DNA from: Streptomonospora nanhaiensis
GTDB lineage: Bacteria; Actinomycetota; Actinomycetes; Streptosporangiales; Streptosporangiaceae
Assembly: GCF_013410565.1 (NCBI RefSeq)
Contig: NZ_JACCFO010000001.1
Span: forward strand, 744,001 to 808,000
Direction: 5' to 3'
Length of the DNA: 64,000 nt
The position numbers were made by a program, and so were the translations under genes. Shown one piece after another: positions 17,506 through 31,450 of this stretch (its first letter is position 1; each line of letters starts with the position of its first letter). A model generated the notes under the pieces. The model was given only the letters and a program-made list of their open reading frames with translations. It was not told where the DNA came from and searched no databases.

Positions 17506-18369
17506 TCAGCGCGCGGCGGCGCGCCCGGCCGCGCGCCGGCGCACCAGCACGCCGTGGCGCGGCGCGAACAGGTAGGCCAGCGCGAACACCACCGCCTGGG
17601 CGACCACCACGGCCCCGCCGGTGGCGATGTCGGCGTAGAAGCTGACATAGGTGCCCACCACCGAGGCGCCCACCGAGACCGCCGCGGCGATGGCCAGCAT
17701 CCGCTCGAAGCGGTCGGTGAGCAGGTAGGCGGTGGAGCCGGGGATGACCAGCATGGCCACCACCAGGATGATGCCCACGGCCTGCAGGGCGATCACCACG
17801 GTGACCGACAGCAGGCCCAGCAGCAGCGCCTCCAGGCGGCGCGGGCTGAGCCCGATGGCGTGGGCGTGGACGGGGTCGAAGGCGTAGAGGGTGAGGTCGC
17901 GGTGCTTGAGCAGCACCACGGCCGTGGTCAGCGCCGCCATCACCAGCACCTGGGCGATCTCGCCGTCGGAGACCCCCAGCACGTTGCCGAAGAGGATGTG
18001 CATGAGGTCGGTCTCGGAGGGGACGCGGGAGATGAGCACGACCCCCACGGCGAACATCGCGGTGAACACGATGCCGATGGCGGCGTCCTCCTTGACCCGG
18101 GAGGTGCGGTTGACCACGCCGATGAGGGCCACCGACCCGGCGCCGAAGACCAGCGCGCCCAGGGCGAAGGGGAGTCCCAGCAGGTAGGACAGCACCACGC
18201 CGGGCAGGACGGCGTGGGAGACGGCGTCGCCCAGCAGCGACCAGCCGGTCAGCGTCATCCAGCACGACAGCAGCGCGCACACGCCGCCGGCCACGGCGCT
18301 GACCAGCAGCGCGCGCACCATGAAGTCGAACTGGAGAGGCACGGTGACCCACTCGATCAGACCGGACAC
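17506..18369 (-). CDS. Mn/Zn-type ABC transporter permease (ABC-3 family)
   Basis: 287 aa with about 8 membrane segments. The family pattern WSLLGDAVSHAVLPGVVLSYLLG near residue 45 and SRVKEDAAIGIVFTAMFAVGVVL near 90 are typical of ABC-3 permeases (MntB, SitC, ZnuB). It forms the membrane channel for the ATPase and binding protein upstream on the same strand, starting about 110 bases after the ATPase gene. The linked MntR-type regulator 7 kb away and the MntR-like operator favour manganese, but zinc cannot be excluded. Confidence 0.88.
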   Translation of the reverse strand: MSGLIEWVTVPLQFDFMVRALLVSAVAGGVCALLSCWMTLTGWSLLGDAVSHAVLPGVVLSYLLGLPFALGALVFGAGSVALIGVVNRTSRVKEDAAIGIVFTAMFAVGVVLISRVPSETDLMHILFGNVLGVSDGEIAQVLVMAALTTAVVLLKHRDLTLYAFDPVHAHAIGLSPRRLEALLLGLLSVTVVIALQAVGIILVVAMLVIPGSTAYLLTDRFERMLAIAAAVSVGASVVGTYVSFYADIATGGAVVVAQAVVFALAYLFAPRHGVLVRRRAAGRAAAR

Positions 18370-18481: not shown

Positions 18482-19264
18482 TCACGCGGCGCGGCCCTCC
18501 TCGGCGGCGGGCGCGGGGCCGGCGCCGAAGGCCGACATCAGCCGTTCGGGCGTCAGCACCTCCTCGGGGGTGCCGTGGGCGACCACGCGGCGCTGCAGCA
18601 GCACCGCCTCGTCGCACCACCGGGGCACCCCGGCCAGGTCGTGGGTGGAGACGAGCAGGGTGTGGCCCTCGTCGCGCATGGCGGACAGGACCTCGATGAT
18701 GGTGGCCTCGGAGGGCCGGTCCACCCCGGCGAAGGGCTCGTCGAGGAGGAACACCTGGGCGCCCTGGGCGATCCCGCGCGCCACGAACGCGCGCTTGCGC
18801 TGGCCGCCGGAGAGCGCGCCGATCTGGCGGTGGGCCAGGCCGGTGAGCCCGGTGCGCTCCAGGGCGGCCTCGACGGCCTCGCGGTCGGCGCGGCGCGGGC
18901 GGCGCAGCGGCCCCATGCGGCCGTAGCGGCCCATCATGACCACGTCGACCACGCGCACCGGGAACGCCCAGTCGACCTGCTCGGACTGGGGCACATAGCC
19001 CAGCAGGCCCGCGCGGCGGGCGGCGGCGGGGGTGCGGCCCAGCACGCGCACGGTGCCGCGCGCGGCGGGGGCAAGGCCCAGGACGGTGCGCAGCAGGGTG
19101 GACTTGCCCGAGCCGTTGGTGCCCAGCAGGGCGCACAGCCGGCCCTGGGTGAGGCGCAGGCGGACGTCGTCGAGGGCCAGGACGTCGCCGTAGCGCACGG
19201 TGGCGCCCTCCACCTCCACGGCCGGCGGCGGGGGTGCGGTCTGCGGTCCGGGGACGCTGCTCAC
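18482..19264 (-). CDS. Mn/Zn-type ABC transporter ATP-binding protein
   Basis: 260 aa. Walker A is GTNGSGKST, the signature is LSGGQRKR, Walker B is VFLLDEP, and the switch His is in LLVSTHDLAG. The GTG start at 19264 overlaps the stop of the binding-protein gene (GTGA), which settles the start. It energizes import through the ABC-3 permease downstream. Confidence 0.88.
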   Translation of the reverse strand: MSSVPGPQTAPPPPAVEVEGATVRYGDVLALDDVRLRLTQGRLCALLGTNGSGKSTLLRTVLGLAPAARGTVRVLGRTPAAARRAGLLGYVPQSEQVDWAFPVRVVDVVMMGRYGRMGPLRRPRRADREAVEAALERTGLTGLAHRQIGALSGGQRKRAFVARGIAQGAQVFLLDEPFAGVDRPSEATIIEVLSAMRDEGHTLLVSTHDLAGVPRWCDEAVLLQRRVVAHGTPEEVLTPERLMSAFGAGPAPAAEEGRAA

Positions 19265-20202
19265 AGGGTCTCCTCTCGGGTGAGGCCGTCGGCGATGGCC
19301 TCGGTGTCGTGGCGCAGCAGGTCCAGGTAGGTGGGCACGGGGCCGTCGGGCCCCGACAGGGAGTCGACGTAGAGGGGGCGGCCCAGCCGCGCGCCGGTCT
19401 CGGCGGCGACCCGGCGCTGGGCGCCGTCGTTGACGGTGGACTCGCAGAAGACGGTGGGGACGTCGCGGGCGGAGACGAACTCCACCGCGGCGGCGACCTG
19501 CTGGGGGGTGCCCTCGTTGTCGGCGTTGACCGGCCACAGGTAGCGCTCGGCCAGGCCGGCGTCGCGCGCCAGGTAGGAGAAGGCGCCCTCGCAGGTGACC
19601 AGGGCGCGGCGGTCGGGGGGCACCTGTTCCAGGTCGGCGCGCAGGTCCTCGCCGATGGCGCGGATCCGCTCCTTGTAGTCGGCGGCGTTGGCGGCGTAGT
19701 CGCGGGCGTGGGCGGGGTCGAGGTCGCTGAGGGCGGCGGCGATGTTGTCGACGTAGACCAGGGCGTTGTCCGGCGACATCCAGGCGTGGGGGTTGGGCGC
19801 GCCCCGGTGGGCGCCCGCGGCGATGGGGATGGTCTCGACGCCCTCGCTCAGGGTGGCGGTGGGCGCCTCGACGCGTTCGCTGAACTGCGCCAGCCAGCCC
19901 TCCAGGCCCAGGCCGTTGTCCAGCAGCAGGTCGGCGCCGGCGCCGCGGACGAGGTCGCTGGGGGTGGGTTCGTAGGTGTGGATTTCGGCGCCGGGGCGGG
20001 TAACGGACTCCACGCGGATGTGCCCGCCGGCGACGTTGCGGGTCATGTCGGCCAGGACGGTGAAGGTGGTCAGGACGGCGGGGCGGCCGTCGTCGTGGAC
20101 GCCGTCGGGGCCGGCGCAGGCGCCCGCCGCCAGAAGGGCGGCGGCCGCGGCCAGCGCGGTGGCGTACCGAGTTGAAGCGCGGCGATCTCTCAAGTTCGGC
20201 AC
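19261..20202 (-). CDS. Mn/Zn-type ABC transporter substrate-binding lipoprotein
   Basis: 313 aa of the ZnuA/TroA/MntC cluster A-I family. The N-terminus is a lipoprotein-like signal (RDRR, a hydrophobic stretch, then Cys29 in LLAAGACAG, an imperfect lipobox). Metal-site regions include PNPHAWMSPDNALVY, VTCEGAFSYLARDAGL and NADNEGTPQQVAA. There is no His-rich loop of the kind that marks many ZnuA proteins, which slightly favours manganese. The GTG at 20202 is the only start open to the upstream stop codon. It has no Shine-Dalgarno sequence and lies inside a DtxR/MntR-like palindrome, so the message may be leaderless. Confidence 0.87.
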   Translation of the reverse strand: MPNLRDRRASTRYATALAAAAALLAAGACAGPDGVHDDGRPAVLTTFTVLADMTRNVAGGHIRVESVTRPGAEIHTYEPTPSDLVRGAGADLLLDNGLGLEGWLAQFSERVEAPTATLSEGVETIPIAAGAHRGAPNPHAWMSPDNALVYVDNIAAALSDLDPAHARDYAANAADYKERIRAIGEDLRADLEQVPPDRRALVTCEGAFSYLARDAGLAERYLWPVNADNEGTPQQVAAAVEFVSARDVPTVFCESTVNDGAQRRVAAETGARLGRPLYVDSLSGPDGPVPTYLDLLRHDTEAIADGLTREETL

Positions 20203-20210
20203 GCCTAACT
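20193..20210 (-). promoter_or_regulatory. DtxR/MntR-like palindrome overlapping the binding-protein start codon
   Basis: AGTTAGGCGTGCCGAACT is an 18-base imperfect palindrome (14 of 18 positions symmetric) whose half TTAGGC matches the half-site of MntR/DtxR-family operators. It covers the GTG start at 20202-20200, so repressor binding would block transcription start or the earliest message. The likely ligand protein is the MntR-type regulator at 27035-27760; this link is inferred. Confidence 0.5.
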
Positions 20211-20392
20211 ACTACCATAGGCGCGCCGATCCATACATGGCGGACAGGTGCGGTTGCTCCCGGTGCGCGTCCCCGCCCCCGCGACACGGCGCCCCCGCGC
20301 CCGGCGCCGCCTCGCGGGCGGCCCGGGCGCGGGGGCGCCGGGGTGGTGCGGGCGCGCCGCTCGGGCGGCGCGGGCGGGACCGGGGTCCGGGG

Positions 20393-21424
20393 CTACTCGG
20401 CCTCGCCCTCGACCGCGGCGGCGAGGTCGCCGGTGTAGTCCTCCAGGACCCAGGGCAGGGTCAGCGGGTTGGGGGTGGAGATGGCCATGGCGGTGGCGGG
20501 GTCGTCGTAGGCGACGTAGCCGCCGTTGCGCACGGCGTCGATCTGCTGGAAGACCGGGTTCTCCTCCAGCCTCTCGCGCTCCTCGGGCGTGTTGTACCAC
20601 ATGACCAGCACGTCAGCGTCGATGTCCTCGGCCTTCTCCATGCTGAGGGTGCCGTAGAACTGGCCGTCGGGGACGGTGATGTCGTCGAGGAAGCCCGCGG
20701 GCGCGAAGCCGAGCCGCTCCATGAGGACCGAGCGGGCGTCCTGCTCGACGTAGAAGCCGAACTCGTTGGTGTCGGGCACCACCGAGCCCACCGCGAAGGT
20801 GGTGCCGGCGAACTCGGGGTGGGCCTCGGCCGCGTCCTCGACCCGGGCGGCGGTCTCCTCGGCGAGGTCCTGGGCCTCCTGCTCCATGCCCACGGCCCGG
20901 CCGATGGCCAGGGTCTGGTCCTGCCAGTCGGTCATCCAGGGCTGGTCGAGGTAGGGGACGGTGGGGGCGACCTGGGAGAGCTGCTCGTACTCCGACTCCT
21001 CCATGCCCGACTGCACGCCCAGGACGAGGTCGGGGCGCAGGTTGGCGACCTGCTCGGCGGAGATGCCGTCGTCGGTGTTGATCAGCTCGGGCTTGTCGGC
21101 GTCCAACTCCTCCAGCTTCTCCAGGTCCCAGGGGAGGTAGCCGTCCTTGTCGCCGGCGTAGGTGGAGGCGGTCATGCCCACCGGGACGATGCCCAGCTCC
21201 AGCAGGGTGGCCTCGTCGGACCAGCCCACGGTGACGATGCGCTCGGGCTTCTCCGTGATCTCGGTGGATCCGTAGGCGTGCTCGATGGTGACCGGGGTCC
21301 AGTCGCCGCCGGAGGCGCCGTCCTCGGTGTCGGCGGGGGCGCCGCAGCCGGCGGCGGCGAGCGCCGCGGCGGCCGCCAGGGCGAGGCGCGAGGTCAGGGC
21401 CGGGGCCCGGAGGGGCGAGCGCAT
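20393..21424 (-). CDS. Iron-siderophore ABC transporter substrate-binding lipoprotein
   Basis: 343 aa. The signal peptide ends in a good lipobox (LAAAGC, Cys27). The mature part is a class III (FhuD/FepB-type) binding protein: TEITEKPERIVTVGWSDEATLLELGIVPVG near 60, then LRPDLVLGVQSGM and MEKAEDIDADVLVMWYN. It should capture a ferric siderophore outside the cell for an ABC permease that is not in this window, so it is an orphan binding protein. An iron box lies 50-68 bases upstream. Confidence 0.9.
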   Translation of the reverse strand: MRSPLRAPALTSRLALAAAAALAAAGCGAPADTEDGASGGDWTPVTIEHAYGSTEITEKPERIVTVGWSDEATLLELGIVPVGMTASTYAGDKDGYLPWDLEKLEELDADKPELINTDDGISAEQVANLRPDLVLGVQSGMEESEYEQLSQVAPTVPYLDQPWMTDWQDQTLAIGRAVGMEQEAQDLAEETAARVEDAAEAHPEFAGTTFAVGSVVPDTNEFGFYVEQDARSVLMERLGFAPAGFLDDITVPDGQFYGTLSMEKAEDIDADVLVMWYNTPEERERLEENPVFQQIDAVRNGGYVAYDDPATAMAISTPNPLTLPWVLEDYTGDLAAAVEGEAE

Positions 21425-23279: not shown

Positions 23280-24077
23280 ATGATCGAACACTTCGCCTAC
23301 GGGTGGACCACCCCCGCGATCGCCTACGCCGTCTCCTTCGTCGGCTCGCTGGTGGGCCTGCAGGCCGCCGCCCGCGCCCGCCGCGCCGCCGGCGGCTCCC
23401 GCCTGGCCTGGGTGCTGCTGGGCGCGGTCTGCCTGGGCGCCGCCGCCATCTGGGCCATGCACTTCATCGCCATGATGGGGTTCTCCGTCCACGCCACCGC
23501 CCTGCGCTACAACGTCGTGCTCACCGTGCTCAGCGGCGTCGTCGCCATCGCCGTGGTGGCCGTGGGCCTGCTGCTGACCGTGGTGCGCCCCGGCTGGACC
23601 AGCGTGCTCAGCGGCGGGGCCGTGATGGGCGGCGGCGTGGTGGCCATGCACTACATGGGCATGGCCGCCGTCCAGATGCACGCCGAGACCGCCTACGACC
23701 CCCTGCACGTCGCGGCCTCGGCCGCCATCGCCGTGGCGGCCTCCACCGTGGCGCTGCTGTTCGCCATCCGCCTGGAGGGCACCTGGGCGCTGGCCGGCGC
23801 CGCGCTGGTCATGGCCGCCGCGGTCTCGGCGATGCACTACACCGCCATGCTGGGCACCAGCGTGCACCACCTGCCCGAGGACCCCTTCGCGGAGCCGCCC
23901 GCCGGCGCGACCATGATGGACTTCTTCCTGCCGATGTTCGTGGGGCTGGGCTTGCTGCTGATGATCGTCTCGCTGATACTGATGCTCTCGCCGCGCGACG
24001 GCGCCGCGGACCGCGCCCCGCACCGCCGCCCCGCGCCCTCCCCCGCCTCGGACTCGGTGTTCACCAAAAGGACCTGA
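23280..24077 (+). CDS. MHYT-domain integral membrane protein
   Basis: 265 aa with about 7 membrane helices and nothing else. Three MHYT units are evident: MHFIAM at 60-65, MHYMGM at 123-128 and MHYTAM at 185-190, with further His at 71, 134, 196 and 197. The family is proposed to bind copper and sense O2, CO or NO at the outer membrane face. Elsewhere it is often fused to GGDEF/EAL or kinase outputs; here there is no output domain. The ATG at 23280 is chosen over upstream extensions because those are non-hydrophobic and Arg/Ala-rich. Its stop codon is followed at once by the ATG of the FhuF-like gene, so the two should be co-translated. Confidence 0.88.
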   Translation: MIEHFAYGWTTPAIAYAVSFVGSLVGLQAAARARRAAGGSRLAWVLLGAVCLGAAAIWAMHFIAMMGFSVHATALRYNVVLTVLSGVVAIAVVAVGLLLTVVRPGWTSVLSGGAVMGGGVVAMHYMGMAAVQMHAETAYDPLHVAASAAIAVAASTVALLFAIRLEGTWALAGAALVMAAAVSAMHYTAMLGTSVHHLPEDPFAEPPAGATMMDFFLPMFVGLGLLLMIVSLILMLSPRDGAADRAPHRRPAPSPASDSVFTKRT

Positions 24078-24818
24078 ATGACCCACGCCGACCTGCGCCG
24101 GGCCCTGGACGACGCGGGCGGCGTCAACCCCTTCTTCGCGGTGCCCGAGGCCCCCGCCGCCGGCGGCTGGGCCCCGCTGCCCGACCTGTGGCGGCGTCCG
24201 GGCCTGCTGGCCGCCGAGGTCGCCGCCGTGCGCGCCCGGCTCGCGGCGGGCCGCCCGGTCGCGGTCGTCGAGGTCCGCGTCGCGGCCTCCCTGCTGTTCC
24301 AGAGCCTGGCCTCGCGGCTGCTGTCCCCCGCCGCGGCCACCGCGCTGTCCCACGGCCTGCTGGCCCCGCCCGAGGCGCTGCGCTGGCGGCCGGCCCGTCC
24401 CGCCGGGCTCGCCCTGGCCCTGGCGGCCGGGGCCCGACCCGTTCCGGTGGCGGAGCGCACCCCGCGGGCCGCCGCCGAGGCGGTGGCCCGCCACGTGGTG
24501 GCCGGCGCGCTGGCCCCGGCCGCCGACGCGCTGCGCGCCCAGGTGCGCCTGGCGCCCCGGCTGCTCTACGGCAACGCCGCCTCGTCGCTGGCCGGGACCG
24601 TGCTGGCCCTGGCCCGCGCCCGCCCGCCCCTGGCCGCCGACGCGTTCGCGCTGGGCCGCGCCCTGCTGGCCCGCCCGCCGCTGGCCGGCCTGGGCTCCTT
24701 CACCGGCACCGGCCCCGCCCAGGCGGCGTTCACCCGCACCACCTGCTGCCTGTACTACCGGCTGCCCGGCGGCGGCTACTGCGGCGACTGCGCGGTGGCC
24801 GCCCGCCGCACGCGCTGA
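24078..24818 (+). CDS. FhuF-like (2Fe-2S)-binding protein
   Basis: 246 aa. The C-terminus has the FhuF [2Fe-2S] signature CC-x10-C-x2-C (Cys223, Cys224, Cys235, Cys238; TCCLYYRLPGGGYCGDC). FhuF of E. coli reduces ferric siderophores in the cytoplasm. The remainder is Ala/Leu-rich and only loosely FhuF-like. It begins one base after the MHYT stop and no siderophore-biosynthesis gene adjoins it. The role is probably reductive, perhaps on iron or copper handled with the MHYT protein; this is inference. Confidence 0.82.
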   Translation: MTHADLRRALDDAGGVNPFFAVPEAPAAGGWAPLPDLWRRPGLLAAEVAAVRARLAAGRPVAVVEVRVAASLLFQSLASRLLSPAAATALSHGLLAPPEALRWRPARPAGLALALAAGARPVPVAERTPRAAAEAVARHVVAGALAPAADALRAQVRLAPRLLYGNAASSLAGTVLALARARPPLAADAFALGRALLARPPLAGLGSFTGTGPAQAAFTRTTCCLYYRLPGGGYCGDCAVAARRTR

Positions 24819-24950: not shown

Positions 24951-26501
24951 GTGGTGGACAACGACGGCGCCGGTCTGCGGATCGGCCCCTATGACTGGCG
25001 CTATCCCACGCTCCGGCGCGGCTACAACCCCCGCTGGACGGCCGACCCCGCCTACATCCGGCTCGTGGCCACACCCCAGGAGGCGGTGCGGGCGCTGGAG
25101 ATCGCCGTCAACGAGGCCGACACCGCCACGGGCGGCAACCGGCGCTCCCGCATCACCGTGCGCTCGGGCGGCCACTGCTACGAGGACTTCGTCTCCTCCC
25201 CCGACGTCCGGGTCATCATCGACGTCAGCCTGATGAACGGGATCTACTGGGACGCGCACCGCCAGGCGGTGTGCGTGGAGGCCGGGGCCAGCAACTGGGA
25301 CATCGGCGAGAAGCTGACCAAGAAGCTCGGCCTGCTCATGCCGGGCGGCTCCTGTCCCACGGTGGGCGTCGGCGGGCACATCACCGGCGGCGGGTTCGGC
25401 CTGTTCTCCCGCCAGCACGGCCTGACCGTCGACTACCTCGACGCGGTGGAGGTGGCCGTGGTCCGGCGGCGCTCGCCCGCCGGGCGCCTGGAGGTGGACC
25501 TGGTCACCGCCTCCTGCCAGGACACCGGCGAACTGCGCGAGCTGTGGTGGGCCCACACCGGCGGCGGGGGCGGCAACTTCGGCATGGTCACCCGCTTCTG
25601 GTTCAAGGACCTGCCCCAGGCGCCCTCGGGCGCGCTGCGGGTGGAGGCCGGCTGGAAGTGGGCCGACATGGACTACGCGTCGTTCAAGCGGCTCGTCGAC
25701 AACTTCGGCGGGTTCTTCCGCGACCACCAGGACGACGACCGCTACGGCCCGCTCTTCGGGATCCTGCTGCTGACCCCGCGCACCTCCGACCAGATCGGCC
25801 TGATCGCCCAGATCGACGCCACCCTGCCCGAGGCGCGCCAGCGGCTGACGGAGTTCGTGCGCGCCCTGGACCACGGGGTGGGAGCGGACCTGGACCACCG
25901 CTCCCAGGCCCACGGCGAGCACCCCGTGCTCACCGGCTCCAAGGACCCCGTGCACGTCGACATCTCCGAGTTGACCGCCGTGCCGCTGCTCGCCAACGAC
26001 CAGGCGGGCAAGTACAAGTCGGCCTACATGCGCACGCCGCTGCCCGAGCACCACGTCCGGGCGGTCTGGGAGGCGCTGACCAACCCGCCCGAGGCGGTGC
26101 GCGACGCCACCGTGCAGATCGACTCCTACGGCGGGGCGATCAACCGGCGCGACGCCGCCGACACCGCCGTGGCCCAGCGCGACTCCGTCGTGAAGCTGCA
26201 GTACCAGGTCTACTGGCCCAGCGGCGGCGACCCCGCGCCGCGCCTGAAGTGGATCCGCGAGCTGTACCGGGCGGTCTACGGCGACGCCGAGGGCCGCCCG
26301 GGGGTGCCGGTGCCCGACGCCACCACCGACGGCTGCTACATCAGCTACCCCGACGCCGACCTGAGCGACCCCGAGTGGAACCGATCGGAGGTCCCCTGGT
26401 CCGCGCTGTACTACAAGGAGCACTACCCCCGGCTGCGGCAGGTGAAGCGGACGTGGGACCCCTTCAACGTGTTCCGCCACCGGCAGTCGGTGGAGCCCTA
26501 G
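24951..26501 (+). CDS. FAD-binding oxidase, berberine-bridge-enzyme (BBE) type, probable bicovalent flavin
   Basis: 516 aa. An FAD_binding_4 domain (about 35-215) is followed by a substrate domain and a C-terminal BBE segment (WDPFNVFRHRQSVEP). Both flavin attachment residues of the bicovalent subgroup are present: His75 in RSGGHCYED and Cys135 in GGSCPTVGVGGHITGGGFG. Such enzymes oxidize sugars or secondary-metabolite alcohols with O2. There is no signal peptide, so it is likely cytosolic. The start is GTG at 24951 or the next codon. It stands alone, 130 bases after the FhuF-like gene. The substrate is unknown. Confidence 0.87.
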   Translation: MVDNDGAGLRIGPYDWRYPTLRRGYNPRWTADPAYIRLVATPQEAVRALEIAVNEADTATGGNRRSRITVRSGGHCYEDFVSSPDVRVIIDVSLMNGIYWDAHRQAVCVEAGASNWDIGEKLTKKLGLLMPGGSCPTVGVGGHITGGGFGLFSRQHGLTVDYLDAVEVAVVRRRSPAGRLEVDLVTASCQDTGELRELWWAHTGGGGGNFGMVTRFWFKDLPQAPSGALRVEAGWKWADMDYASFKRLVDNFGGFFRDHQDDDRYGPLFGILLLTPRTSDQIGLIAQIDATLPEARQRLTEFVRALDHGVGADLDHRSQAHGEHPVLTGSKDPVHVDISELTAVPLLANDQAGKYKSAYMRTPLPEHHVRAVWEALTNPPEAVRDATVQIDSYGGAINRRDAADTAVAQRDSVVKLQYQVYWPSGGDPAPRLKWIRELYRAVYGDAEGRPGVPVPDATTDGCYISYPDADLSDPEWNRSEVPWSALYYKEHYPRLRQVKRTWDPFNVFRHRQSVEP

Positions 26502-26544: not shown

Positions 26545-26874
26545 TCAGGACTTGCGGTTCTCGCCCAGCTCCTCCTCGATGGGGTTGACCGGGCCGGTCT
26601 CGCGGGACGAGGCCGCCATGCCCTGCGGCGGGTGGCGCTGCTGGTAGCGCTCGGTCTCCGAGCGGCGCTGCCCGCCCAGCTCGCCCTGGGGCACCGCGCG
26701 CAGCACCTCGTTGGGCTCGTTGTAGTCGGCCTGCGGCATCGCCTGCAGGGCGCTGAGCAGGGACCGGTCGGCGCCCTGGTCCTGGGCGTACTCCACGATC
26801 CGGTCCTTGCCCACGGGGAAGTCGAGCCCGGACAGGATCTGCCGGAGTCCCTCGACGTCGTGCAGCACGGCCAT
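26545..26874 (-). CDS. DUF2795 domain protein
   Basis: 109 aa, soluble. The first 65 residues match DUF2795: VEGLRQILSGLDFPVGKDRIVEYAQDQGAD then LLSALQAMPQADYNEPNEVLRAV. The tail is polar and disordered. AGGAG seven bases before the ATG at 26874 fixes the start; an upstream in-frame GTG at 26892 would place this ribosome site inside the gene. The function of the family is unknown. Confidence 0.82.
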   Translation of the reverse strand: MAVLHDVEGLRQILSGLDFPVGKDRIVEYAQDQGADRSLLSALQAMPQADYNEPNEVLRAVPQGELGGQRRSETERYQQRHPPQGMAASSRETGPVNPIEEELGENRKS

Positions 26875-27034
26875 GGCATCGCTCCTTTCCACCGCGTGGC
26901 CCCGGCGCCGCCGAGCGGTGTGGGCGCGGTCGGCGCGGCTCGGCGCCGCCGGGCGTGCGCGGGGACGACTACCCGGCGCACCACCGGGCCATTCGCGCGG
27001 CTGCCGGTGAGGGCGGCGGCGGGGCGCCGGACGC

Positions 27035-27760
27035 TCAGCCGCCGGAGCGGGGGGCGCGGGGCGGGTGCTGCTCGGGCGCCGGCGCGATCCACAGGGCCTC
27101 GGCCGCCTGCAGGCCCAGTGCCTGGTCGCGCTGGTCGCCGGGGGCGCCCACGCGCACCATCAGCGAACCGCCGAAGGGCTGGCGGCCCACCAGCTCCACG
27201 CGCATGCCGATCCCGATGCGCTCCTCGGACAGGTAGCGCAGCAGGTCGGGGTCGGAGTCGTTGACGCGCACGATGACGCCCACGGTGCCGGGCTCGGCCG
27301 CCGACAGCAGCCGGGTCTCGCGCTCGACCACGCGGCCGTCGCGGGTGGGGATGGGGTCGCCGTGCGGGTCGACCAGGGGGTCGCCCAGGTGGGCGGCGAT
27401 GCGGTCGACGAAGCGGTCGGAGACCACGTGCTCCAGGATCTCGGCCTCGTCGTGGACCTCGTCCCAGGAGTAGCCCAGGGCCTCCACCAGGTAGGTCTCC
27501 AGCAGCCGGTGGCGGCGCAGCACGGCCAGGGCCGCCTTGTCGCCGGTCTCGGTGAGGCGGACGTCGCCGTAGCGGCGGTGCTCCACCAGCCCCAGCTCGC
27601 TCAGTTTGCGCAGCATGCCCGAGACCGAGGAGTTGGACACCGCCAGCCGCTCGGCCATGGCGGAGATGGTCACCCGGCCCGAACCGCGCTCCTGCAGGTC
27701 GTAGATGACCTTGACGTAGTCCTCGACCGAGGTGGACGGCCGCTCCCCTGGGTTGCCCAT
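27035..27760 (-). CDS. mntR: DtxR-family metalloregulator, MntR type
   Basis: 241 aa. The N-terminal winged helix (about 10-70; TSVEDYVKVIYDLQERGSGR, AMAERLAVSNSSVSGMLRKL) is followed by the metal-binding/dimerization domain (HRLLETYLVEALGYSWDEVHDEAEILEHVVSD) and a C-terminal FeoA/SH3-like domain. The architecture fits MntR/IdeR. The wording of the dimerization helix fits the manganese branch often linked to ABC-3 transporters, though specificity cannot be proved here. On the minus strand TACCGT ends 7 bases before the ATG, so the transcript is probably leaderless. The candidate operator is at 20193-20210. Confidence 0.82.
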   Translation of the reverse strand: MGNPGERPSTSVEDYVKVIYDLQERGSGRVTISAMAERLAVSNSSVSGMLRKLSELGLVEHRRYGDVRLTETGDKAALAVLRRHRLLETYLVEALGYSWDEVHDEAEILEHVVSDRFVDRIAAHLGDPLVDPHGDPIPTRDGRVVERETRLLSAAEPGTVGVIVRVNDSDPDLLRYLSEERIGIGMRVELVGRQPFGGSLMVRVGAPGDQRDQALGLQAAEALWIAPAPEQHPPRAPRSGG

Positions 27761-28007: not shown

Positions 28008-28085
28008 ATGGCCGTACCGCTCACCGCCAGACCCGCGCGCACCGCGCCCGGCGCCGCCGCGCCGGCGGGGGGCCGCGCGCGATGA
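28008..28085 (+). CDS. Possible 25-codon leader peptide upstream of dnaE2
   Basis: An ATG preceded by GGGGGAA at good spacing opens a 25-codon frame (Ala/Pro/Arg-rich) whose stop overlaps the dnaE2 start (ATGA). It could couple translation to dnaE2. No homologue is recognized, and an open frame of this length is common by chance in GC-rich DNA. Confidence 0.25.
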   Translation: MAVPLTARPARTAPGAAAPAGGRAR

Positions 28086-31000
28086 CCCCGCCCGCCGACC
28101 CCTTCGTCCACCTGGACGTGGTCTCCTCGGCGTCCATGCGCCACGGCGCCACCCCGCCCGCCGCCCTGGTGGAGCGCGCGGCCGAACTGGGCATGGACAT
28201 GCTCGCGCTCACCGACCGCGACGGCGTCTACGGCGCCGTCAAGCACGTGCGGGCCTGCCAGGCCGCCGGGATCCGCCCCCTGCTGGGCGCCAGCCTGGCC
28301 GTGGCCGCCCCCGAGGGGGGCCGCGTCACCCTGCTGGCCCGCGGCGCCCGCGGCTGGGCCTCGCTGTGCCGCCTGGTCAGCGCCGCCCACGCCGAGGGCG
28401 CGCGAGGGGTGCCCGCCCTGTCCCGCACCGCCCTGGCCGCCCACGCCGAAGGGCTGGTGGTGCTGCTGGGGCCCGAATCCGACGTCGCCCGGGCCGCCGC
28501 CCAGGGCCACCTGGAGGGCGCGCGCCGCCGCCTGGAGCGCTGGCGCGAGGTCGCCGAGACCGCCGTCGAACTGGTCGACCACTACGGCCCCGGCCAGCAC
28601 CGCCGCGCCGCCGCCCTGCTGCGCCTGGCCGCCGACACCCGCACCCTGGCCGTGCTGGGCAACGCGGTGCGCTACGCCCGCCCCGGCGAGGCCGAGGTCG
28701 CCCGCGTGCTGGACGAGGCCCGCCGCTGGCTGCCCGGCGGCGCCCCGCCCGAGGTCCCCGACACCGGCGAGGCCCACCTCAAGGGCACCGCCGAGATGGC
28801 CGCCGTGGCCGAGCGGATCTGCGGCCCCGACCCCGCCGCCGCCCGCCGGCTGCTGGCCCACACCCGCGCCCTGGCCGCCTCCTGCGCCCTGGACCCGGGC
28901 GCCGACCTGGGCATGGACCGCCACCACCTGCCCGAGGTCCCCGGCGCCCGCGACCGGCTGTGGCTGGCCTGCCGGGAGGGCATGGACCGGCTGGGCAAGG
29001 CGCGCGACACCCGCGCCCGCGACCGGCTTGCCCACGAACTGGACATCATCGAGCGCAAGGGGTTCTCCGCCTACTTCCTCACCGTCGCCGACATCGCCCG
29101 CCGCATCCGCGCCGCCGGCATCCGCTGCTCCATCCGCGGCTCGGGCGCCGGCAGCCTGGTCAACCACCTCATCGGCATCTCGGCGGTGGACCCCCTGGCC
29201 CACGGGCTGCTCATGGAGCGGTTCCTCACCCACAGCCGCACCGGCCTGCCCGACATCGACCTGGACGTGGAGTCGGCCCGCCGGCTGGAGGCCTACGGGG
29301 TCGTCATGGGCGCCTACCCCGACGCCGCGTGCGTGTCGATGATGGAGACCTACCGCGCCCGCAGCGCCATCCGCGACGCCGGCACGGTCATGGGCGTGCC
29401 GCCCCACGAGATCGACGTGCTGGCCAAGGCGTTCCCCCACATCCGCGCCCGCCAGATCCGCACCGCATGCGCCGACCTGCCCGAACTGCGCTCGGTGGGG
29501 CTGGGCGGCGCCCAGGTGGAGACGCTGTTCCGGCTGGCCGAGCGGCTGGACGGGCTGCCCCGCCACATCGCCATGCACCCCTGCGGGATCGTGGTGTCGG
29601 ACTCCTCCCTGCGCGACCGCGCCCCCCTGGAGCCCAGCCGCGTGGGCTACGACATGGTCCAGTACGACAAGGACGACGTCGAGGAGATGGGCCTGATCAA
29701 GCTCGACGTCATCGGGGTGCGCATGCAGTCGGCCATGACCCACGCCCTGGCCGAGATCGAGCGGGTGGAGGACACGCGCGTGGACCTGGACGCGCTGCCC
29801 CCCGACGACCCCGCCACCTACGCCATGATCCGCTCCTCGGGCACCCTGGGCTGCTTCCAGATCGAGTCGCCCGGCCAGCGCGAACTGGTCTCGCGGCTGC
29901 GCCCGGCCCACATGGGCGACCTCATCGCCGACATCTCCCTGTTCCGCCCCGGCCCGGTCAACAGCGACATGATCACCCCCTTCATCGCCGCGCGCGGCCG
30001 CGACCGCGCCCTCGACCTGCCCAGCCCCGTGCTGGAGGGCGTCCTGGCCGAGACCGGCGGGGTGGTGATCTTCCACGAGCAGGTCATCGGGGTGCTGCAC
30101 GCCATGACCGGCTGCGGGCTGGACCAGGCCGAGGCGATGCGCCGGCAACTGGGCACCGAGGAGGGCCGCGAGGAGGTGCGCCGGCGCTTCACCGCCATGG
30201 CCGCCGACTGCGGCCACGACCCCGCGGTGGTGGAGCGGGTCTGGCAGGTGCTGGCCTCCTTCGGCGCGTTCGGGTTCTGCAAGGCCCACGCCGCGGCCTT
30301 CGCACTGCCCACCTACCAGTCGGCCTGGCTCAAGCGCCACCACCCCGCCGCCTTCTACGCCGGGGTCCTCACCCACGACCCCGGCATGTACCCGCGCCGC
30401 GCCGTCATCGACGACGCCCGCCGCTTCGGCGTGCCGGTGCTGGGCGTGGACGTCAACCGCTCCGACGCCGGATGGCGGGTGGAGCCCGCCGGCAACGGCC
30501 GGCTGGGCATCCGCGCCGGACTGGCCGACGTCAAGGGCATCACCGAGGCCGAGGTCGAGGCGCTGGTGGCCGGGCGGCCCTACACCTCCCTCAGCGACGC
30601 CGCCCGCCGCGCCCGGCCCTCCCGCGACGTGCTGGACCGCCTGGTCCAGGTGGGCGCCTTCGACTCCCTCTACGGCATCGGCACCGACCCCGGCGCGCCC
30701 ACGCGGCGCGACCTGCTGCTGCGGGCGGGCGCCCTGGAGCGGGCCGGGCGCCGGGCTCTGGGCGGGGGCCAGCTGCCCATGGCCCTGGAGGCGGTGGAGG
30801 CCCCGCCGGAGGAGGGGCTGCCGGCGATGACGCCCGCCGAGGAGGTGCAGGCCGAACTGGAGGTGCTGGGCTACGACGCCTCCCGGCACCTGCTGGACTG
30901 CTACGCCGAGCTGACCGCGGAGCTGGAGGCCGGGTGCGGCGCCGTGCGCGCCCGCGACCTGGCGCGGGTCCCCGCCGGCGCCGAGGTGCTGGTGGTGGGG

Positions 31001-31450
31001 GTGAAGGTGGCCACCCAGACCCCGGCGGTGCGCTCGGGCCAGCGCATCATCTTCGCCACCCTGGACGACGCCACCGGCCTGGTGGACCTGACGTTCTTCG
31101 AGTCGGTGCAGGAGCGCTGCGCGGCCACCGTGTTCGGCTCCTGGCTGCTGGCGGTGCGCGGCCGGGTGCGGCGGGTGGGGTCGGGGATGGCCACGGTCAA
31201 CGCCACCCACGCCTGGGACCTGGAGGAGCTGGCGCGGACCTACCACGAGGCCGGCCCCGACGCGCGGCGGGCGCTGCGCCGCCGCCTGGCCGAGGACCCC
31301 GCGCGCGCCCGGCTCAGCGGCGTGGGCGGGCGGCGCATCCGCTACGCCAGCGGCTACGAGCTGTCCACCTACGCCGACATCGCCCCGGCCGGCGCCGCGG
31401 CGGCCCCGCGCCGGCTCTGGCACGCCAGCCCCGGCAGCGCGGGACGGTGA
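28082..31450 (+). CDS. dnaE2: Error-prone DNA polymerase III alpha subunit, DnaE2/ImuC
   Basis: 1122 aa, the length of DnaE2 rather than replicative DnaE1. The PHP domain (about 5-280) is degenerate: the first metal motif reads HLDVVSSASMRHG where HLHV is usual. The catalytic aspartates are retained: PDIDLDVES near 390 and LIKLDVIGVR near 537. The palm, finger and helix-hairpin regions (FGFCKAHAAAFALPTYQSAWLKRHHP) follow, then an OB fold near the C-terminus. Its role is translesion synthesis after DNA damage with ImuA'/ImuB, neither of which is in the window. An SOS box upstream fits LexA control. The ATG at 28082 has GGGGG upstream; the protein's family homology begins there. Confidence 0.9.
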   Translation: MTPPADPFVHLDVVSSASMRHGATPPAALVERAAELGMDMLALTDRDGVYGAVKHVRACQAAGIRPLLGASLAVAAPEGGRVTLLARGARGWASLCRLVSAAHAEGARGVPALSRTALAAHAEGLVVLLGPESDVARAAAQGHLEGARRRLERWREVAETAVELVDHYGPGQHRRAAALLRLAADTRTLAVLGNAVRYARPGEAEVARVLDEARRWLPGGAPPEVPDTGEAHLKGTAEMAAVAERICGPDPAAARRLLAHTRALAASCALDPGADLGMDRHHLPEVPGARDRLWLACREGMDRLGKARDTRARDRLAHELDIIERKGFSAYFLTVADIARRIRAAGIRCSIRGSGAGSLVNHLIGISAVDPLAHGLLMERFLTHSRTGLPDIDLDVESARRLEAYGVVMGAYPDAACVSMMETYRARSAIRDAGTVMGVPPHEIDVLAKAFPHIRARQIRTACADLPELRSVGLGGAQVETLFRLAERLDGLPRHIAMHPCGIVVSDSSLRDRAPLEPSRVGYDMVQYDKDDVEEMGLIKLDVIGVRMQSAMTHALAEIERVEDTRVDLDALPPDDPATYAMIRSSGTLGCFQIESPGQRELVSRLRPAHMGDLIADISLFRPGPVNSDMITPFIAARGRDRALDLPSPVLEGVLAETGGVVIFHEQVIGVLHAMTGCGLDQAEAMRRQLGTEEGREEVRRRFTAMAADCGHDPAVVERVWQVLASFGAFGFCKAHAAAFALPTYQSAWLKRHHPAAFYAGVLTHDPGMYPRRAVIDDARRFGVPVLGVDVNRSDAGWRVEPAGNGRLGIRAGLADVKGITEAEVEALVAGRPYTSLSDAARRARPSRDVLDRLVQVGAFDSLYGIGTDPGAPTRRDLLLRAGALERAGRRALGGGQLPMALEAVEAPPEEGLPAMTPAEEVQAELEVLGYDASRHLLDCYAELTAELEAGCGAVRARDLARVPAGAEVLVVGVKVATQTPAVRSGQRIIFATLDDATGLVDLTFFESVQERCAATVFGSWLLAVRGRVRRVGSGMATVNATHAWDLEELARTYHEAGPDARRALRRRLAEDPARARLSGVGGRRIRYASGYELSTYADIAPAGAAAAPRRLWHASPGSAGR

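Follow-up and report, generated by a model that had tools for sequence, protein, structure and literature searches.

MucR, NbdA and CdgB are MHYT-GGDEF-EAL proteins, and we know of no MHYT domain with a partner that is not fused to it; nor do we know of MHYT or FhuF proteins as members of MntABC-MntR loci. In CoxC of Afipia carboxidovorans, an MHYT-LytTR protein, the MHYT domain needs copper and senses CO (PMC11347149). FhuF of E. coli, for its part, bears a C-C-x10-C-x2-C cluster motif; the paper that we searched reports it as loosely membrane-associated and names no electron donor (PMC8068687). The literature that we searched yielded no paper joining MHYT with FhuF.

Here we analyse a 64,000-nucleotide stretch of the Streptomonospora nanhaiensis genome (hereafter the window), in which a gene for a stand-alone MHYT membrane protein runs directly into one for a FhuF-like protein (Table 1). 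The original prediction, made from the sequence, held that the two could be a coupled system: a membrane metal or gas sensor with an Fe-S partner, or a copper/iron reductase. We propose instead, with a probability of roughly 0.6, that they are two old and separable proteins sharing an operon at the level of the genus, lodged within a manganese/iron acquisition locus.

Table 1. Features of the MHYT-FhuF locus (positions in the window)
Feature	Position	Strand	Detail
ABC-3 permease, Mn ABC transporter	17506..18369	-	Pfam ABC-3 1.2e-78
ATPase, same Mn ABC transporter	18482..19219	-	ABC_tran 1.4e-25
MntA/MntC-type Mn-binding protein of the same transporter	19261..20202	-	Pfam ZnuA 1.9e-79
Putative MntR-type operator GTTxGGCxxGCCxAAC	20192..20211	.	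Overlaps apparently leaderless GTG start of mntA
Ferric-siderophore-type substrate-binding protein	20393..21424	-	Peripla_BP_2 3.6e-25
Stand-alone MHYT membrane protein	23280..24077	+	265 aa, three MHxxxM units, no output domain
Coupled MHYT/FhuF junction	24065..24080	+	SD-like AAAAGGA within MHYT 3' end, then TGA|ATG
FhuF-type [2Fe-2S] protein	24078..24818	+	246 aa, CC-x10-C-x2-C
Berberine-bridge-type FAD oxidoreductase	24951..26501	+	FAD_binding_4 2.3e-15, BBE 4e-14
MntR/DtxR-family regulator with FeoA domain	27035..27760	-	Pfam Fe_dep_repr_C 1.2e-30

Two known families at one junction

The components themselves are as first described. The TGA of the MHYT gene (24075-24077) is followed with zero spacing by the ATG of the FhuF-like gene (24078-24080) in the open reading frames, and a purine-rich, Shine-Dalgarno-like stretch lies inside the MHYT gene at its 3' end. 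All three MHxxxM units (MHFIAM, MHYMGM and MHYTAM, at residues 60, 123 and 185 respectively) are intact. MHYT is the sole Pfam domain in the 265 residues (E=7.5e-31; 106 bits against a cut-off of 21), and the same scan detected no fused LytTR, GGDEF, EAL or kinase output. The FhuF cysteine set is likewise in place in the second protein, as C223-C224-x10-C235-x2-C238, and all four cysteines are invariant among 34 aligned relatives. The source genome (6.28 Mb) encodes two further FhuF_C proteins besides the MHYT-adjacent one.

The predicted model of the MHYT protein (pLDDT 90.7) has seven long helices. In it, the MHxxxM motifs are predicted to sit at the outer ends of TM2, TM4 and TM6, with the charged tail inside, an orientation that follows the positive-inside rule by turning the positively charged loops and tail inward. 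A search for a known fold gave no sequence match and no significant Foldseek match, and structure comparison of the model returned generic seven-helix membrane proteins with Z of 6 or less. In the tree, MHYT topology follows the family: Streptomonospora proteins form one clade (100/97), and the protein of one further genome, G015, is adjacent to that clade and to Nocardiopsis. Stand-alone MHYT proteins, that of the window (24048-24074) and its relatives, commonly carry a short aromatic motif at the C-terminus, such as SVFT[KR]R, DVWTRRR or SLFTPRN, that perhaps serves for docking.

The FhuF-like protein matches FhuF_C above its cut-off (E=1.1e-8) and lies below it for the main FhuF Pfam model (18.5 versus 25.2 bits). 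It also misses the FhuF equivalog models TIGR03951 (39.4 versus 63.85 bits) and PRK10647 (18.9 versus 300 bits), and we therefore file it as a divergent FhuF-like family member, not as an equivalog. The fold is nonetheless that of FhuF in the predicted model (pLDDT 93.7), which aligns with the E. coli structure (PDB 7qp5) over 225 residues with Z 19.3 and an rmsd of 3.1 A; a family profile finds the same structure at E=3.2e-10. The model contains zero transmembrane segments, and the protein should thus be cytoplasmic.

The pair within and beyond Streptomonospora

The adjacency is not a peculiarity of one genome. MHYT and FhuF genes lie side by side in all six Streptomonospora genomes searched, at protein identities of 58-87% (for MHYT, 87% to the window protein in S. 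mangrovi and 67% in S. alba). In five of these species the genes abut, overlap or nearly do so: they abut in the window species and S. mangrovi, overlap by GTGA in one genome and, in two others, have the likely fhuF start at or just past the MHYT stop; S. alba has a longer gap. What surrounds the pair is far less stable. The Berberine-bridge-type oxidoreductase gene downstream, together with a putative regulator, is found in the window species and S. mangrovi only, and other species carry luciferase-like and aldo-keto reductase genes at the flanks. Retention of the pair in six of six genomes while flanking genes come and go points to an adjacency beyond chance. To judge by the arrangement of the genes, the two are likely to be co-transcribed and translationally coupled across the genus. 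Both genes diverge less at nonsynonymous than at synonymous sites (ratios 0.34-0.76, with synonymous changes probably underestimated in so GC-rich a genome). The MHYT tail keeps [SP]-[VA]-F-T in all six species. In 6/6 species a gene for a small DUF2795 protein (26545-26892 in the window) lies near fhuF or converges on it.

One Streptomonospora genome, G004, has a degenerate MHYT protein (ATHFIAM, MHHLAT, MHYTAA) encoded by an intact gene that still adjoins fhuF. In this protein (L165 10147-10935 / L117), the alignment shows the loss of three unit methionines and of the second-unit tyrosine. Such loss of ligands with the pair retained is not what a joint sensor under tight constraint would lead one to expect.

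Outside the genus, the evidence that the pair is absent is strong among the matches listed. At about 100 non-Streptomonospora MHYT loci, each taken with 2-12 kb of DNA (78 came from a scan of the genome collection, 24 from genomes of the family and the class), no FhuF-motif neighbour was found. Nor did the matches listed for 246 genomes sampled across the class include a second MHYT-FhuF pair less than 10 kb apart. The neighbours of MHYT elsewhere are unrelated genes, among them dnaG, rsgA, a diol dehydratase and a catechol dioxygenase. We also considered a copper theme around other stand-alone MHYT genes and dropped it, the ten neighbours scanned being unrelated proteins.

FhuF, on the other hand, has kept its own company. 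In at least nine genomes of four other genera (G011, G013, G026, G076, G100, G103, G128, G149 and G167), a FhuF ortholog of 51-59% identity fills the corresponding slot next to MntABC with no MHYT gene there, divergent from the permease gene and 2-4 kb away from it; in G023 the ortholog adjoins MntR. The reverse is seen in G015, with MHYT in the slot beside MntABC and FhuF not found in the genome. Nocardiopsis departs from this pattern: its FhuF gene lies tens of kb from MntABC among the matches listed, and its MHYT genes often form a tandem pair elsewhere. There, FhuF adjoins a HisKA_3 histidine kinase and a LuxR-type response regulator (L195:6689-9614, L197, L199). The Mn-locus, MntR-adjacent, Nocardiopsis and Streptomonospora FhuFs nevertheless form a single clade (99/97), in which the MHYT-adjacent ones are one subclade (100/96).

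Across 297 genomes of the family, 124 carry both proteins, 74 FhuF only, 58 MHYT only and 41 neither (p=0.53, treating the genomes without correction for phylogeny), and an MHYT match is absent from 7 of 12 examined genomes that carry this FhuF clade. We thus rejected an obligate MHYT-FhuF system: each protein occurs in the same locus alone, and their presence and absence are independent across the family.

A probable operon in a metal-uptake locus

The setting that the original prediction overlooked is one of metal uptake, comprising MntABC, a siderophore-binding protein and MntR. The MntA/MntC-type protein is closest to solved MntC-type manganese transporter proteins (E~1e-101), and it keeps a Glu (CEGAFSYLAR) that we take, from established knowledge of PsaA and MntC, to be the Mn-type ligand. 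The siderophore-type binding protein matches iron-compound-binding proteins of the PDB (E=8e-52). It is an orphan found between mntA and MHYT in 6/6 Streptomonospora genomes; no such gene was found in the mntA-side slot of other genera. The regulator matches the NCBIfam MntR model at 1e-56, under its cut-off. The gene at 28082-31450, whose product is presumably the alpha subunit of a DNA polymerase III of the error-prone DnaE2/ImuC type, adjoins MntR in several genera.

The start of mntA bears a 16-bp palindrome, GTTxGGCxxGCCxAAC, in 22 of 22 loci examined. In the window it occurs once, where about 0.05 would be expected per shuffled window, and its form and place suggest that it is the MntR operator. 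A TATGGTA-like -10 element lies just upstream of it in 22/22 related loci. A scan of the window showed no such palindrome before MHYT, FhuF or the regulator gene, and alignment of the regions upstream of MHYT across the genus, searched for a shared operator, revealed a TTTAC-like element only and no visible palindrome. MntR control of the pair was accordingly discarded, the only putative operator in the window sitting on mntA. Thus the pair lies in a metal-uptake locus and yet, with the operator at mntA only, gives no sign of MntR control.

To explain these results we propose that the FhuF lineage is the older resident, which in several genera has its place next to MntABC and MntR, and that MHYT arrived in front of fhuF in Streptomonospora, where the two would now be co-expressed and translationally coupled. 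The cytoplasmic FhuF-family [2Fe-2S] protein most likely reduces ferric iron and so releases siderophore-bound iron, and the adjacent siderophore-binding protein would help to deliver the ferric siderophore. MHYT would be an ordinary stand-alone actinobacterial membrane protein that, by analogy with CoxC, probably binds copper or a diatomic gas through ligands at the outer face. The pair would be co-transcribed, and we infer no obligate physical complex between its members. A dedicated sensor complex is unlikely because most close relatives have just one of the two genes and the older neighbour of FhuF is manganese uptake. Several observations do sit uneasily with this separable operon. Five of the six species, though divergent, retain a coupled junction, which hints at some selection for co-production, and the conserved tail could be a docking motif. 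In addition, scores below the equivalog cut-offs leave room for a substrate other than a siderophore, and common metal regulation is unsupported, given that no MntR-type operator precedes the pair.

It is those junctions and that tail, together with the copper-dependent CO sensing of CoxC, that speak for a true two-protein sensor, in which a copper-binding MHYT would sense CO, NO or O2 and control FhuF, its non-covalent output module, through the C-terminal tail. We consider this unlikely. FhuF of the same clade does without MHYT in other genera, many genomes have MHYT without this FhuF, and G004 has kept the pair with its units degraded. The sensor with an Fe-S partner, as originally put forward, is likewise unsupported: FhuF stands in the locus without MHYT in four other genera and MHYT without FhuF in G015, and the two do not co-occur beyond chance in the family.

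Equally doubtful is the possibility that this FhuF clade works for the manganese system, perhaps as a reductase of Mn(III)- or Fe(III)-siderophore complexes that enter the cell upon induction of MntABC, with MHYT incidental. Its position beside MntABC, MntR or both in several genera and the single clade formed by those FhuFs favour the idea. Against it stand the lack of an MntR-type operator at fhuF and mhyt, and Nocardiopsis, whose FhuF is remote from MntABC and next to a two-component system.

A more elaborate sensor in Streptomonospora, with MHYT as a membrane copper or gas sensor whose cytoplasmic tail docks FhuF, so that iron release would follow the status of gas or copper through FhuF as a non-covalent redox output, we regard as improbable. 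An electron-transfer pair, with MHYT as the membrane redox partner passing electrons to FhuF, or else a copper/iron reductase, has little to recommend it: gene adjacency and the unnamed donor of the loosely membrane-associated E. coli FhuF (PMC8068687) would fit, but FhuF exists without MHYT and, with the metal site predicted outside, the transfer would need to span the membrane through no known relay. The copper/iron reductase that was originally offered as an option is topologically awkward, the MHYT ligands being predicted on the outer side, where TM2, TM4 and TM6 end, and FhuF in the cytoplasm. That the genes are neutral neighbours sharing a promoter and nothing further would agree with the differing MHYT neighbours among genera and the lack of statistical co-occurrence. 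We hold it to be very unlikely, since five of the six species have preserved the junction through exchanges of other genes nearby.

Comparison with described systems

Overall, the original prediction is supported in part: it named the parts correctly, and their coupling as a system is unsupported. If MHYT and FhuF were a system, it would provide a non-fused partner for the MHYT domain. The tie of a FhuF-type lineage to the manganese-uptake/MntR locus in several genera did not appear in the papers that we searched, and it is a testable hint of cross-talk between manganese and iron. Relatives with FhuF only or MHYT only offer natural controls for experiments.

The FhuF-like protein shares with E. 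coli FhuF (7qp5; PMC8068687) the fold, as predicted over 225 residues, and the CC-x10-C-x2-C motif; it differs in its identity of about 20%, below the curated cut-offs, and in its MntABC/MntR locus. With CoxC (PMC11347149) the window MHYT has in common a membrane domain with MHxxxM units, but it lacks a DNA-binding or other output domain, and any binding of gas or copper by it is a prediction. MucR, NbdA and CdgB share the MHYT membrane domain as well, their GGDEF/EAL output being absent from the window protein. Closest are the stand-alone MHYT proteins of Nocardiopsis, Streptomyces and other Streptosporangiales, with the same length, seven transmembrane helices and about 33-51% identity. On sequence these clearly belong to the same family as the window MHYT, and they differ in having unrelated gene neighbours and no adjoining FhuF in the loci and samples examined. 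Finally, the window holds the full MntABC set and MntR-type regulator of an MntABC-MntR locus, to which MHYT and FhuF are additions without an MntR-type operator of their own. What is new does not go beyond the way in which known families are arranged, and the association of FhuF with MntABC and MntR is the more durable result.
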